DNA of 64,000 nt from assembly GCF_003581425.1 (NCBI RefSeq), contig NZ_QXTG01000001.1, positions 186,001 through 250,000 on the forward strand. Direction: 5' to 3'. Positions 586-12,806 of this stretch are shown here, one piece after another (within the stretch, counting starts at the first letter, position 1; the number at the start of each line of letters is the position of its first letter). The notes under the pieces are model-generated. The model was not told the DNA's origin, ran no database searches, and was given only the letters and a program-made list of their open reading frames with translations. The DNA is from Amnibacterium setariae (GTDB lineage: Bacteria > Actinomycetota > Actinomycetes > Actinomycetales > Microbacteriaceae). A program made the position numbers and the translations under genes.

Positions 586-2378
586 ACGTGGACGAGACCG
601 CGCCGGCCGCCGCCGTCACGGGGCCGATCCTGGCCCTGACCGGCGGCGAGCGCCTGCTCGCCGGCCGGTACCGCGTCGAGCAGCACATCGGCCGCGGCGG
701 GATGGCGGAGGTGCACGTCGGCACCGACACCCGCCTCGGGCGCAAGGTCGCGATCAAGCTGCTGAAGTCGTCCCTCGCGAACGACCCGACCTTCCGCATG
801 CGGTTCCGGCAGGAGGCGCAGGCCGCCTCCCGGATGACCCACCCGACGATCGTCCGCGTCTTCGACGCGGGCGAGGAGACGGTGATCGAGTCCGGCGGCG
901 GCGAGGCCCAGCTGCCGTTCATCGTGATGGAGTTCGTCGACGGCAAGCTGCTGAAGGACCTCATCAAGGACGGCCCGATGACAGCGCAGGAGGCCGGCCA
1001 CATCATCGGCGGCATCCTCACGGCCCTCGAGTACTCGCACCGGGCCGGCGTCGTGCACCGCGACATCAAGCCCGGCAACGTCATGGTCACGCGGTCCGGC
1101 CAGATCAAGGTCATGGACTTCGGCATCGCCCGGGCGATCAGCGACTCGTCCGCGACCGTCGCCCAGACGAGCGTCATCCTCGGCACCGCGCAGTACTTCT
1201 CGCCCGAGCAGGCGAAGGGCGAGACGGTCGACTTCCGCAGCGACCTGTACTCGACCGGCGTCGTGCTGTTCGAGATGCTGACCGGCCGCGCGCCGTTCCG
1301 CGGGGACAGCCCCATCGCCGTGGCGTACCAGCACGTCTCCGAGCGCCCGGAGGTGCCCAGCCGCATCAACCCGGCGCTCACCGAGCAGATGGACGCCGTC
1401 GTCCTCCGCGCCCTCGAGAAGGACAAGAGCCGCCGGTACCAGTCCGCGGAGGAGTTCCGCGAGGACGTCGACGCGGTGCTCGCGGGGCGCACGCCCACGG
1501 CGCGCCTCCCCACCGCGGAGATCCACCAGGAGCTCTTCGGCGGCGCGGAGGAGACCGTCGACTCGACGGTCCGCCGCCTGGCCTTCGACGACCCCGGTCC
1601 CGCCAGCACCTCGAGCAAGCCGCCGGTCGCCTGGATCTGGGCGGGCGTCCTGGTCGTCGCCGCCATCGTGGTCGCCGTCGCGCTGTGGGTCGTGTCCCTC
1701 GCGACCGGCGGCTTCGGCGCGGACAACCGCACCGTGCCCGCCGACCTCGCGGGCTCGACGCAGACGAGCGCCGAGCACACCATCCGCGGCCTCGACCTGC
1801 GGCCGCTGCTGCACCAGGAGCCGAGCAGCTCCGTGCCGAAGGGCGTCGTCATCCGCGCCACACCGGCCGCGGGTACCGTCCTGACGAAGGGTCAGTCGGT
1901 CAGCCTCTGGGTCTCCACGGGGACGCCGCAGGCGACCGTGCCGACGCTCGCCGGGCTCACGCAGGACGCGGCGAAGCAGGCCGTCGCCCAGGCGGGGCTG
2001 AAGGTCGGCGACGTCACCTCCGACGAGTCGAAGGACGTGCCGGACGGCACCGTCATCTCCGCCTCGGAGCAGGCCGGCGCGAAGGTGGACGAGGGCACCT
2101 CCGTCGACCTGGTCGTCTCCAACGGCAAGGTGCAGCTGCCCGACCTGACGGGTCGCACGATCACCGACGCGCAGGCAGTGCTCAGCGGTCTCGGGCTCAG
2201 CGCCGACGTGCAGCAGGCCGAGAACTGCGGCGCGGCGGGCGACACGGTGGTCTACCAGGGCACGCAGGCCGGGCTCGTCGACCAGGGGTCGCAGGTCGTG
2301 CTGCAGCAGTGCTCCGGGAACTCCACGCCGGGTCAGGACCCGAGCGCGACGCCGACCCCCACGGCCCCGGTCGGCTGA
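582..2378 (+). CDS. pknB: PknB-type serine/threonine protein kinase with PASTA domains
   Basis: This is a 598-residue membrane kinase that phosphorylates cell-wall and division proteins in response to peptidoglycan fragments. Visible motifs are the glycine loop GRGGMAEVH (37-45), catalytic lysine in VAIK (K59), HRDIKPGN (from 159), DFGIA (from 179) and SPEQ (207-210). A single transmembrane segment spans about 349-371. Three PASTA repeats follow at about 383-446, 450-514 and 516-577, the last with a Cys pair. A Thr/Pro tail ends the protein. The GTG start at 582 overlaps the preceding stop, and the residues after it run straight into the kinase fold, so this start is preferred. The number of PASTA repeats (3) is at the short end for PknB. 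Confidence 0.95.
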   Translation: MNVDETAPAAAVTGPILALTGGERLLAGRYRVEQHIGRGGMAEVHVGTDTRLGRKVAIKLLKSSLANDPTFRMRFRQEAQAASRMTHPTIVRVFDAGEETVIESGGGEAQLPFIVMEFVDGKLLKDLIKDGPMTAQEAGHIIGGILTALEYSHRAGVVHRDIKPGNVMVTRSGQIKVMDFGIARAISDSSATVAQTSVILGTAQYFSPEQAKGETVDFRSDLYSTGVVLFEMLTGRAPFRGDSPIAVAYQHVSERPEVPSRINPALTEQMDAVVLRALEKDKSRRYQSAEEFREDVDAVLAGRTPTARLPTAEIHQELFGGAEETVDSTVRRLAFDDPGPASTSSKPPVAWIWAGVLVVAAIVVAVALWVVSLATGGFGADNRTVPADLAGSTQTSAEHTIRGLDLRPLLHQEPSSSVPKGVVIRATPAAGTVLTKGQSVSLWVSTGTPQATVPTLAGLTQDAAKQAVAQAGLKVGDVTSDESKDVPDGTVISASEQAGAKVDEGTSVDLVVSNGKVQLPDLTGRTITDAQAVLSGLGLSADVQQAENCGAAGDTVVYQGTQAGLVDQGSQVVLQQCSGNSTPGQDPSATPTPTAPVG

Positions 2379-10204: not shown

Positions 10205-10753
10205 ATGACCGATTCGCTCCTCCAGCAGACGATCACCGCACCGGTCGGGCTGCGGACCCGATGGCGGGACCGTCGGCGGCTGCAGCGGATCGACCGGCTC
10301 GGCGCTCGCCTCGCTCGGATCGACGCCGTCGAGGAGCTGCTCGTCCGCGCGCACGACCGGCTCGCCGCCGGCTGGGTGCAGGACGCCTGGTTCACGACCA
10401 TCGACGAGCAGGGCGTCCGGCTGCACGTCGGCACCCTCCGGGCCCACGACGGCGAGCGCAGCGAAAAGGCCTGCCTCGTCGCCGCGGTCGCCATCGAGGC
10501 CCTGCCGGGCAGCATCACGGGGCCGGTCGGGCAGCGGGCCATCGGCACGCTGTGGAACGTGCTCCACGGCGGCGGTCCCATCGGCGACTGGAGCACCCCG
10601 CCGGGCGTCACGGCCGCGCGCGCCTACGACCTGGTGCGCTGGAACGACGCGGCCGACCGCCGGCAGTCCGACGTGCTCGCGCTGATGGACGCGGGTCGCT
10701 CCGCGCTCGGCCGCACGGGCGACGCGGTCCGCACGGAGCTGGCGCGCGCCTGA
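10205..10753 (+). CDS. Hypothetical protein, 182 aa, possibly DUF6197-like
   Basis: The product is soluble, with a basic N-terminal helix (RTRWRDRRRLQRIDRLGARLARI) and a compact domain containing WVQDAW, CLVAAVAIEAL, WNVLHGG and YDLVRWNDAADR. This pattern, with an early aromatic motif, a Cys-containing helix, and an NDA/W-rich helix, recalls small actinobacterial DUF6197 proteins, but I cannot confirm membership. An AGGGGG-type Shine-Dalgarno precedes the ATG. The gene converges with the SipW-LamG gene; the stops are only a few bases apart (TGA at 10751-10753, opposing stop at 10756). Function is unknown. Confidence 0.65.
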   Translation: MTDSLLQQTITAPVGLRTRWRDRRRLQRIDRLGARLARIDAVEELLVRAHDRLAAGWVQDAWFTTIDEQGVRLHVGTLRAHDGERSEKACLVAAVAIEALPGSITGPVGQRAIGTLWNVLHGGGPIGDWSTPPGVTAARAYDLVRWNDAADRRQSDVLALMDAGRSALGRTGDAVRTELARA

Positions 10754-10755
10754 CC

Positions 10756-12228
10756 TCAGTGCCGGCGGTCGACGATCGCCTGCTGCTCGGTCGTCGTGAG
10801 CACGGCCGAGTACACCTGCGTCTCGTCGAGGTCGCCCGTGAACCACGCCCTGCTGCCCCGGTTCGGGTAGGCCGACGCGATCGTGTCGTAGCCGAGGCGC
10901 CACCACGTGGTGGTGCCGCTGAGCAGCGACAGGTTGACGAGCGACGAGTTCGTCGCCGCCGAACCGACGGGGGTCGTCCCGTCGACGGCCACGGTGCACC
11001 CGGTGGACGCGCTGAAGGTCGCGATCAGCAGGTGCCAGGTCCCGTTGGCGTACCCGCTCGGGCTCCGGCAGGTCATCACGGTCACCACGCCGCCCGCGAC
11101 GACCGCCGTCGGGACACCGATGACGACGGACCCGTTCGAGTCCAGGTACACCACGACGCTGCTCAGCGAGCTGCCGGTCGACCCCTGCCCGCTGTTCCCG
11201 AGGTCGGCGATGACGCCCGAGGCGGTCGAGGTCCGGAACCACGAGGCGATGGTGACGCCGCCGGACGGCATCGTCGAGGAGGTCGGCGAGACGAGCCCGC
11301 TCGCCCCCGCCGTGCCGAGGGTGAGGAACGGCGACGCGTCGGTCGTGCACGTGCCCGCACCGCGCACCACCGTGCCGTAGGTGGAGACGGAGGTGCCGCC
11401 GACGCGGTTCACCGTCGTCGACCCGCTGCTCTCCATGAAGTTGAAGTAGGCCAGTGCGGACGACGGCAGGGTCCCGCGCAGCGGCCAGTCCCAGCAGCCC
11501 GTCACGACGCTCGGACCGTTCGAGGTGGCGTTCGCGAACGAGGCCTGCGCGGGCGCCACGGCCCGGCCGGCCGTCGCGAGCAGGACCAGCACCAGGGTCG
11601 ACGACGCCGCGAGGCGGTGCCGCGCCTGGCGCCGACGCCGGGCCTCCGAGTCGGGAGCGACGTGCCGTCCGGTCAGGAAGCGCCGGTCGAGCAGCGTGCC
11701 GACGGCGAGCAGCACCGCGGCCGTGCCGGTCAGGAGCAGGGGCTGCAGCTGTCCGGTCCGGATCCAGTAGGCGGGCAGCCCCGCGTAGGGGACCCGGAGG
11801 AAGCCGACGCCCTGCACGGCGGAGAAGGGCACCGTGCTCGAGTCGCGGACGTCGTTGGCGTCGCCCTTCGTCGTCAGCACCTGCCCCCGGGCTGCGACCA
11901 GCCGGTGCATCCGGAGGGCCCCGCGCTCGTCCGGGTCGTCGAAGAGCAGCACCTGACCGATGGCGAGGTCCGCGCGCTGCACCGGCTTCGCGACGACCGC
12001 GTCGCCGACCTGGAACCGCGGCTCCATCGAACCGCTCATCACGGTCGTGGCGTGGAGCCCGACGAGGCCGGGCACCACGGTCCACGACGCGAGTGCGACG
12101 CCGGTCAGCAGGAGGCTGCGGCACAGCCCCGCGATGACGACCAGGACCCACCCCGCCGCGGACGGAGCCGGAGCGGGGCGGCCCGCGGACGGACGTCGCC
12201 CTCGGACTAGTTGTTCTGCGCTTCCCAT
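10756..12228 (-). CDS. SipW-type signal peptidase I fused to a LamG-like domain
   Basis: This 490-residue protein joins two parts. Residues about 26-185 are a signal peptidase I of the SipW/ER type: a transmembrane helix, catalytic Ser in VMSGSMEP (S67), the base as His rather than Lys (MHRL, H108), the TKGDAND box (120-126) and a second hydrophobic helix (162-180). A basic stretch and a third hydrophobic helix (207-222) follow, ending in an APAQA-S site that looks like a cleavable signal sequence. The remaining 260 residues, Ser/Thr/Gly-rich with VTIASWFRT, GTWHLLIATF and DLDETQVYSAVL, match a concanavalin-like LamG_3 jelly roll. Its start overlaps the upstream SipW-type substrate gene by 22 bp, so they form one module. 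The fused LamG part is unusual for a processing enzyme. Confidence 0.85.
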   Translation of the reverse strand: MGSAEQLVRGRRPSAGRPAPAPSAAGWVLVVIAGLCRSLLLTGVALASWTVVPGLVGLHATTVMSGSMEPRFQVGDAVVAKPVQRADLAIGQVLLFDDPDERGALRMHRLVAARGQVLTTKGDANDVRDSSTVPFSAVQGVGFLRVPYAGLPAYWIRTGQLQPLLLTGTAAVLLAVGTLLDRRFLTGRHVAPDSEARRRRQARHRLAASSTLVLVLLATAGRAVAPAQASFANATSNGPSVVTGCWDWPLRGTLPSSALAYFNFMESSGSTTVNRVGGTSVSTYGTVVRGAGTCTTDASPFLTLGTAGASGLVSPTSSTMPSGGVTIASWFRTSTASGVIADLGNSGQGSTGSSLSSVVVYLDSNGSVVIGVPTAVVAGGVVTVMTCRSPSGYANGTWHLLIATFSASTGCTVAVDGTTPVGSAATNSSLVNLSLLSGTTTWWRLGYDTIASAYPNRGSRAWFTGDLDETQVYSAVLTTTEQQAIVDRRH

Positions 12229-12806
12229 GTCAGCGCGACGGTGGCGTTCTTGCCCTGCGCGGCGTCCGGCGTGTTCTGGTCCAGCGTCCAGGTGACCCGG
12301 AACACCTTCGACTCGGATGCGGCCCCCGTGGTCGTCCAGTTGGCGCTGTACCCGTTGGCGTAGCTCGTCGCCCCGAGGTTGTTCAAGGTGCCGTTGAAGA
12401 CGTTCGACGTCCCGGACGCCGGGGTGAACCCGGTGCAGGTGCCGAACCCGCCGCCCGTGCCGGTCTCGATCTGCAGGTTGACGTACGGCGCGAGCCCGGT
12501 GCTGGTGACCGCGCCCCAGACCTTCACCGCCGACGGGAGGGACCCGGAGGACGTCACCGTGATGCAGTTGGACGCCGTCTGCCCGGGCTTCACGTTGGCG
12601 TTCGCCGCGGCGGTGAAGAGCGCCGTGCCGGAGTCGTCGTCAGCGAGCTTCACGGAGCCGGAGGTCCAGTTGTTCGACGAGTTGCTCGTCTGCGCGCTGA
12701 AGCTCGAGTACGAGGCCGACATCACGAACGCGCCGCTGCCCACGACCGCGATGCCCGCAGCCGCGAGCGTCGACAGCCGGCTGAACCGTCGCAGAGTCCT
12801 GTGCAC
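12207..12806 (-). CDS. Secreted protein with SipW-cognate signal peptide (TasA/CalY-like)
   Basis: This 199-residue protein starts with a basic n-region and hydrophobic helix (LSTLAAAGIAVVGSGAFVMSA), followed by YSSFSAQTSNSSNNWTSGSV. That helix-then-aromatic/Ser-Asn pattern is typical of substrates cleaved by SipW peptidases, such as TasA and camelysin. The mature part is beta-rich with KLADDDSGTALF and a cysteine pair (NCIT and GTCTG). TasA-like proteins assemble into extracellular fibres or matrix. That role is inferred, not shown. A strong GAGGAG Shine-Dalgarno is followed by the ATG at 12806, and a minus-strand TAGCCT (12851-12846) is a plausible -10 box. The SipW-LamG gene overlaps its end, which argues that the peptidase processes this protein. 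Confidence 0.75.
   Translation of the reverse strand: MHRTLRRFSRLSTLAAAGIAVVGSGAFVMSASYSSFSAQTSNSSNNWTSGSVKLADDDSGTALFTAAANANVKPGQTASNCITVTSSGSLPSAVKVWGAVTSTGLAPYVNLQIETGTGGGFGTCTGFTPASGTSNVFNGTLNNLGATSYANGYSANWTTTGAASESKVFRVTWTLDQNTPDAAQGKNATVALTWEAQNN

Follow-up and report, generated by a model that had tools for sequence, protein, structure and literature searches.

A two-gene cassette in the window (the whole 64,000-nucleotide stretch of Amnibacterium setariae DNA analysed here) encodes a TasA-like secreted subunit (SUB) and a single polypeptide that joins a SipW-type signal peptidase to a LamG domain through an internal signal-peptide-like helix. With modest confidence, we read it as a TasA-like fibre cassette in which the peptidase and a second substrate, an initiator or a terminal adhesin, are made as one polypeptide and separated by SipW cleavage. 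Sequence analysis and comparison with relatives document the fused architecture, its predicted topology elements, a conserved site motif, a conserved partner gene, a TasA-like model fold for that partner and exchange of the cargo behind the peptidase. The initial annotation of this DNA had proposed that self-cleavage releases LamG, that the neighbouring protein is matured and that a two-component fibre and adhesin results. Our data support this reading, within which we infer cleavage, assembly and adhesion; it had not seen that the cargo is exchangeable or that the cargo's mature N-terminus is similar to the partner subunit's donor strand. The parts come from known families and their logic resembles that of tapA–sipW–tasA, and the covalent union of peptidase and substrate, its spread and its exchangeable cargo are new with respect to the literature searched: in open-licence PMC papers we found no earlier report of a signal peptidase–substrate fusion, none pairing SipW with LamG and, among the papers listed, none on SipW in Microbacteriaceae.

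The cassette lies near the replication origin (gyrA, gyrB and dnaA-region genes), flanked by tRNA-Ala and a DUF6197 gene. Both of its genes run leftward, with SUB upstream and a 22-bp overlap at 12207–12228. The two reading frames are as first described, a small secreted protein overlapping a gene that joins a SipW/ER-type peptidase (S67, H108) to LamG, and the second frame carries both profiles above their cut-offs. The overlap is present in the window but does not generalise, because in relatives the two genes usually lie tens to hundreds of base pairs apart. A promoter and terminator scan found neither. The DUF6197 gene (window 10205–10753, plus strand; E = 2.7e-12) adjoins the cassette, and a similar 182-amino-acid gene occupies the equivalent place in two genomes of relatives (G001 and G004). 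The features of the cassette, all on the minus strand, are as follows.

10756–12228 (−): fusion gene, 490 amino acids; SipW/ER-type signal peptidase, internal signal-peptide-like helix and LamG
12207–12806 (−): SUB gene, 199 amino acids; predicted secreted TasA-like fibre subunit with a SipW-cognate N-terminus (F36, T40, W47)
11668–12228 (−): SipW-type S26 peptidase part, residues 1–187; TIGR02228 above cut-off; AF2 helices TM1 (24–55), catalytic domain, TM2 (within 151–187)
12028–12030 (−): codon of catalytic Ser67 (VMSGSMEPR), invariant in alignments A3 and A5
11905–11907 (−): codon of catalytic His108 (MHR), invariant in alignments A3 and A5
11860–11862 (−): codon of conserved Asp123 (KGDAN), invariant
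11842–11844 (−): codon of conserved Asp129, invariant
11614–11667 (−): basic cytoplasmic linker, residues 188–205, putative n-region of the internal signal peptide, from the charge pattern in homologues
11551–11613 (−): TM3, putative hydrophobic core of the internal signal peptide, about residues 206–226, from the AF2 helix 195–221 and hydropathy
11542–11550 (−): predicted cleavage motif A227-Q228-A229, cut before S230-F231, from alignment and pattern tests
11485–11541 (−): predicted mature N-terminus SFANATSNGPSVVTGCWDW, residues 230–248, with donor-strand-like register F0, T+4, V+10/V+11; low pLDDT, probably disordered
10759–11481 (−): LamG/ConA-like jelly roll, residues ~250–490, from PF13385 and a VIA Z of 18.8 to AbnA residues 642–846

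The peptidase part has the Ser/His catalytic residues, with conserved Asp, of SipW/ER-type S26 enzymes: S67, H108, D123 and D129 are invariant in an alignment of 27 full homologues. In classical bacterial signal peptidase, the position of His108 is occupied by Lys. The enzyme exceeds the cut-off of the ER-type profile TIGR02228 (E = 5.9e-16, 58.7 bits; cut-off 51.85) and falls below the equivalog cut-off of the SipW profile NF046067 (E = 1.7e-10, 40.8 bits; cut-off 190); it is a relative of Bacillus SipW, not the Bacillus equivalog. The gene pairing suggests that it cleaves TasA-like pre-proteins.

Fold prediction bore out the LamG jelly roll. PF13385 matches residues 311–481 (E = 5.3e-10, 40.1 bits; curated cut-off 27.6), and the model is a jelly-roll beta-sandwich with Foldseek matches to ConA-like folds at E of about 1e-7; VIA aligns 192 of its residues with the C-terminal domain of arabinanase AbnA at a Z of 18.8. 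The fold is that of Laminin_G_3/ConA-like carbohydrate-binding domains such as AbnA domain 4 (PDB 5HON; Z 18.4–18.8 over 192 residues), although identity to this domain is only 14%. The match list also holds the AbnA C-terminal domain alone with an arabino-oligosaccharide, and the modelled fold makes ligand binding by the window LamG plausible. Botulinum and tetanus binding domains appear in the same list at ~10% identity; kinship with clostridial neurotoxins was considered and rejected, because the likeness is that of a common ConA-like fold and nothing points to a toxin.

For SUB, the AF2 model (pLDDT 83.8, core above 93) had a single Foldseek match below E = 0.001, the TasA fibre 8AUR (E = 4.4e-5, rank 1), to which VIA aligned it as a TasA-type jelly roll with a Z of 9.7 over 136 residues at 3.1 Å. 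The next structural matches were TasA crystal structures, archaeal bundling pili and chaperone–usher pilins; these three groups mostly form donor-strand fibres. A search of the PDB with the SUB sequence profile returned no TasA match, so the link to TasA rests on fold and motif. Likewise, the camelysin profile PF12389 did not match the window SUB at E ≤ 1, and a relative (L035) scored 15.3 bits against a cut-off of 22.5. The motif is a donor-strand pattern with an aromatic residue at mature +2 and a second hydrophobic residue 10–11 positions on (F29 and F39 in TasA): F36 is invariant among 51 SUB sequences, and T40 and W47 are kept in at least 90% of them, in agreement with the SipW-cognate N-terminus claimed for this protein at the outset. 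We regard SUB as a predicted TasA-like fibre subunit that would polymerise.

In the AF2 model of the fusion protein (mean pLDDT 78.6), a helix (195–221) is followed by a low-confidence segment (221–243) holding AQA|SF and by a beta-sandwich (258–487). The 20 residues that precede TM3 have a net positive charge in 55 of 63 homologues; together with the number of membrane spans and the outside catalytic site, this suggests that the loop lies inside and LamG outside. Across cargos the junction is constant, with a basic linker, a helix, AxA and then F...T......[WFLV], a pattern that the fibre subunit shows at the start of its mature form and that is the donor strand in TasA. A hydrophobic helix and an AxA-type site are present in all fused proteins examined, with F, W or Y within a few residues in 62 of 63 under a loose pattern. 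Under a strict pattern, 46 of 63 fused proteins have the site after the post-peptidase helix. The same pattern follows 1 of the 148 remaining helices in these proteins and, among neighbouring proteins, 8 of 591 helices that are internal and 8 of 140 that are N-terminal (p = 7e-48 and 4e-23, values that are inflated, as the counts overstate independence, because the fused proteins are akin to each other). Several of the eight N-terminal matches are themselves SipW-type substrates, and true SUB signal peptides carry the strict pattern in 56 of 59 cases. A signal-peptide HMM built from 35 unfused SUB N-termini only placed its best match at the junction in most fused proteins, and 36 of 59 exceeded 5.1 bits, the highest score reached by any of 601 other proteins after exclusion of three that are evidently SipW-type substrates. 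This HMM gave no junction match in the window fusion protein itself, whereas the match is clear in two relatives of the same genus (L032, 9.2 bits; L039, 16.1 bits). Thus, of the internal signal-like helix ending in AQA|S that the initial annotation described, the helix stands in the model, but the SipW-cognate motif is weaker in the window than in relatives, and the case for the window junction rests on its alignment with L032 and L039.

The same genome contains an unfused counterpart. About 70 kb away, a second cassette (L040:7356–9927; G000:C1:125355–127926) encodes SUB2, SIP2 (357 amino acids) and a separate LamG protein (290 amino acids) that bears a SipW-type signal peptide of its own; the last two genes overlap by 4 bp. 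About eighteen further loci share this order, usually also with a 4-bp overlap between sip and LamG. This cassette, which many Microbacteriaceae conserve, resembles that of the window in combining a TasA-type substrate, a SipW-like peptidase and LamG in one operon order, and differs in that its three genes are apart, SIP2 has an extra C-terminal part and I, V or L stands at +4. Because such cassettes encode LamG separately, the cargo that is fused to the peptidase in the window is found in other places as a plain secreted substrate. On the tree, fused LamG domains and split ones form separate clades (99*), so the fusion was not made from its present neighbour; a recent single-origin fusion of the local SIP2–LamG pair is not supported, with SIP and SIP2 also scoring apart. 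Split LamG weakly matches the TafC fimbrial protein family NF052521 (E = 2.7e-4, far below cut-off), and a follow-up of this match found no paper in the open-licence PMC literature. A third SipW-type system in this genome (L138; G000:C2 ~953.4 kb; ORFs 720–1460 and 1444–2028, plus strand) has a 194-amino-acid peptidase without fused cargo, which overlaps the end of a putative 246-amino-acid substrate gene.

We propose a model in which the fusion chain would have three membrane spans: TM1 would be followed by the catalytic domain on the outside, TM2 by a short basic loop in the cytoplasm and TM3 by the cargo, again outside. TM3 and the AxA site would together form an internal signal peptide. 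Cleavage after A229 by SipW, acting in cis or supplied by a nearby copy, would free LamG, and the same SipW would cut the signal peptide of the upstream, co-expressed SUB. The freed LamG would start with a disordered stretch in register with the mature N-terminus of SUB and the TasA donor strand; this strand could insert into the groove of a SUB molecule to form a fibre start or cap, in the way that TapA serves TasA, and a LamG of the carbohydrate-binding type would then sit at that fibre end. The fusion would thereby fix one initiator per peptidase. We judge cleavage at the junction very probable and, once cleavage is granted, SipW rather than LepB with high probability the enzyme responsible; docking of LamG into the fibre is likely if SipW makes the cut. 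The position in the fibre and the ligand are proposals too. A donor strand without a groove would fit one fibre end only, a restriction that we counted against this explanation.

In TasA fibres, the mature N-terminus (residues 28–38) occupies the groove of the following subunit, which F29, I32 and F39 contact, and TapA offers an N-terminus similar to this donor (PMC9674648). In TapA, a disordered donor N-terminus precedes a complete Ig fold; the protein works at the filament start only, and secretion of no more than its residues 44–57 is enough for a strain to form biofilm (PMC10151520). The SUB positions equivalent to the TasA donor strand are F36, T40 and W47. Among fused cargos, S or T stands at +4 after F, W or Y at 0 in 79%, and a hydrophobic residue is found at +10 or +11 in 53 of 56, compared with 4–21 of 56 for nearby position pairs that exclude +11. 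Position +4 is hydrophobic in 10 of 10 split LamG proteins but in 3 of 30 fused ones (Fisher 3e-7), a contrast that is confounded with the two peptidase lineages. The I, V or L of split LamG matches the hydrophobic +4 of its partner SUB2, which argues that the LamG-type domain bears the N-terminus of the co-encoded fibre subunit. This shared register is the strongest sequence argument for fibre docking; recognition by two peptidases could explain it too. The explanation built on that point, that a self-cut releases LamG as an independent carbohydrate-binding protein or adhesin outside the fibre and that the N-terminal pattern serves SipW recognition only, is in our estimation unlikely: ice-binding and GH26 cargos can act alone and the register varies with the enzyme lineage in both systems, but the conserved hydrophobic residue 11 positions past F0 is far from the cut and corresponds to the TasA contact F39 (PMC9674648), and the fibre subunit gene almost always adjoins the fusion.

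The window cargo has the sequence pattern, as distinct from the binding, of a disordered donor-like N-terminus before a complete domain. That domain is LamG rather than a V-set Ig domain, and the cargo is not TapA but may work like it. The tapA–sipW–tasA operon of Bacillus subtilis likewise includes a SipW/ER-type peptidase dedicated to the system, a subunit with the TasA fold and a further secreted protein in which a donor-strand-like N-terminus precedes a complete domain (PMC9674648, PMC10151520). By contrast, the window belongs to another phylum, its peptidase and second protein are one polypeptide, and the second domain is LamG, or another type in relatives, in place of the V-set Ig of TapA. 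The sipW–calY–tasA system of Bacillus cereus with CapP is alike in combining SipW, camelysin subunits and an accessory assembly protein, and differs in that its peptidase lacks a fusion and CapP is an accessory of another kind (PMC13082335, PMC10151520).

Two further explanations concern the cut itself. TM3 is a good membrane helix and might stay uncut, in which case LamG would remain tethered next to the peptidase and serve as a membrane-bound surface domain or as an anchor for the fibre; we hold this to be improbable, because AxA and F at +2 are kept across differing cargos, the conserved mature N-terminal stretch would be hidden, and in unfused relatives this site belongs to an ordinary signal peptide at the protein start. 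Nor do we give much credence to cleavage by LepB, the general signal peptidase, with a fusion that merely co-expresses two proteins. The window genome has one LepB-type enzyme (TIGR02227, 129.7 bits) and AxA sites suit LepB too, but the junction is closer to unfused SipW substrates than to ordinary secreted or membrane proteins, and the cargo N-terminus tracks the peptidase type.

To define the spread of the fusion, we searched 60 relatives, 398 genomes of the family, 297 of the order and a public genome set. Fused proteins occur in dozens of genomes from at least six families of Actinomycetes, including Amnibacterium, Curtobacterium, Frigoribacterium, Cryobacterium, Schumannella, Frondihabitans, Pseudolysinimonas, Arthrobacter, Phycicoccus, Flexivirga, Allobranchiibius, Modestobacter, Geodermatophilus and Microlunatus. 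On public genome contigs, a single-protein scan found none and an alignment-based scan found 78 loci. Gene calling at named-genome loci placed SUB directly upstream on the same strand in 75 of 77 fused-type peptidases; the two peptidases without it (294 amino acids each) resemble the unfused SIP2 type. Both the SipW–LamG architecture and the conserved pairing for which the initial annotation had advised a search are thus present well beyond the window. The closest genome with a full copy is that of Amnibacterium kyonggiense (G001), where the locus keeps its place. In G004, the copy at the same chromosomal place is decayed (L039:8135–9112), having lost the peptidase start, the catalytic serine and SUB, with a frameshifted C-terminus, and the locus went undetected in 4 of 6 other genus genomes searched; the fusion locus is therefore dispensable. 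This relic notwithstanding, the idea that the fusion is a frameshift, a pseudogene or an assembly error, named beforehand as what would undo the claim, is refuted: dozens of genomes, many of them independent, have the fusion intact and in frame, and its catalytic residues are invariant.

The cargo behind the same peptidase varies. LamG accounts for 34 of 65 tree rows; other cargos are an Ig-like domain of ~100 residues, an ice-binding protein (PF11999, E = 1e-26 to 3e-35; L118–L120), Big/invasin-type Ig domains (L099, L146), a GH26 domain on Pseudarthrobacter plasmid NZ_CP061722.1 (L145:5073–6536) and a camelysin-like domain. In L130:1456–2745 (G458), a SUB-family domain is itself the cargo, one chain scoring 131 bits for SIP and 79 bits for SUB, and the short flank of this locus contained no separate SUB gene. 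Four peptidases (L043, L125–L127) end about 17–20 residues past the AxA site, and three members from another family have no tail at all. The four short tails are possible minimal donor-strand peptides and, by analogy, would be natural counterparts of TapA 44–57. A quick tree of the peptidase part, in which the deep branches are weak, shows 13 changes of cargo label, and well-supported branches force at least 3 changes for LamG.

With somewhat less than even confidence, we extend the model to widespread, self-contained actinobacterial fibre systems in which a peptidase is joined to an exchangeable donor-strand terminal domain, and one self-cleavage would free both the mature enzyme and an initiator or tip, one initiator per peptidase. 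If so, a donor-strand fibre pathway with enzyme and substrate in one chain would operate in Gram-positive genera such as Curtobacterium, Frigoribacterium and Arthrobacter, and Actinomycetes would have a fibre system of the TasA type whose end domains (LamG, ice-binding, GH26 and Ig) can be exchanged. The TapA-initiator idea would become testable in a second phylum, and the architecture would offer a natural plan to display chosen domains on fibres.

Two minor observations concern individual fusions. In L118 and L119, the linkers with ice-binding cargo have RR preceding the internal helix, which resembles a Tat motif. The GH26 fusion of L145 is annotated only as 'glycosyl hydrolase', and its annotated start (MEPTVQ...) omits TM1 and the catalytic serine region; the protein probably starts further upstream. 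Our analysis corrects the annotation of at least two RefSeq proteins that are named by their cargo alone ('glycosyl hydrolase' and 'Ig-like domain-containing protein').
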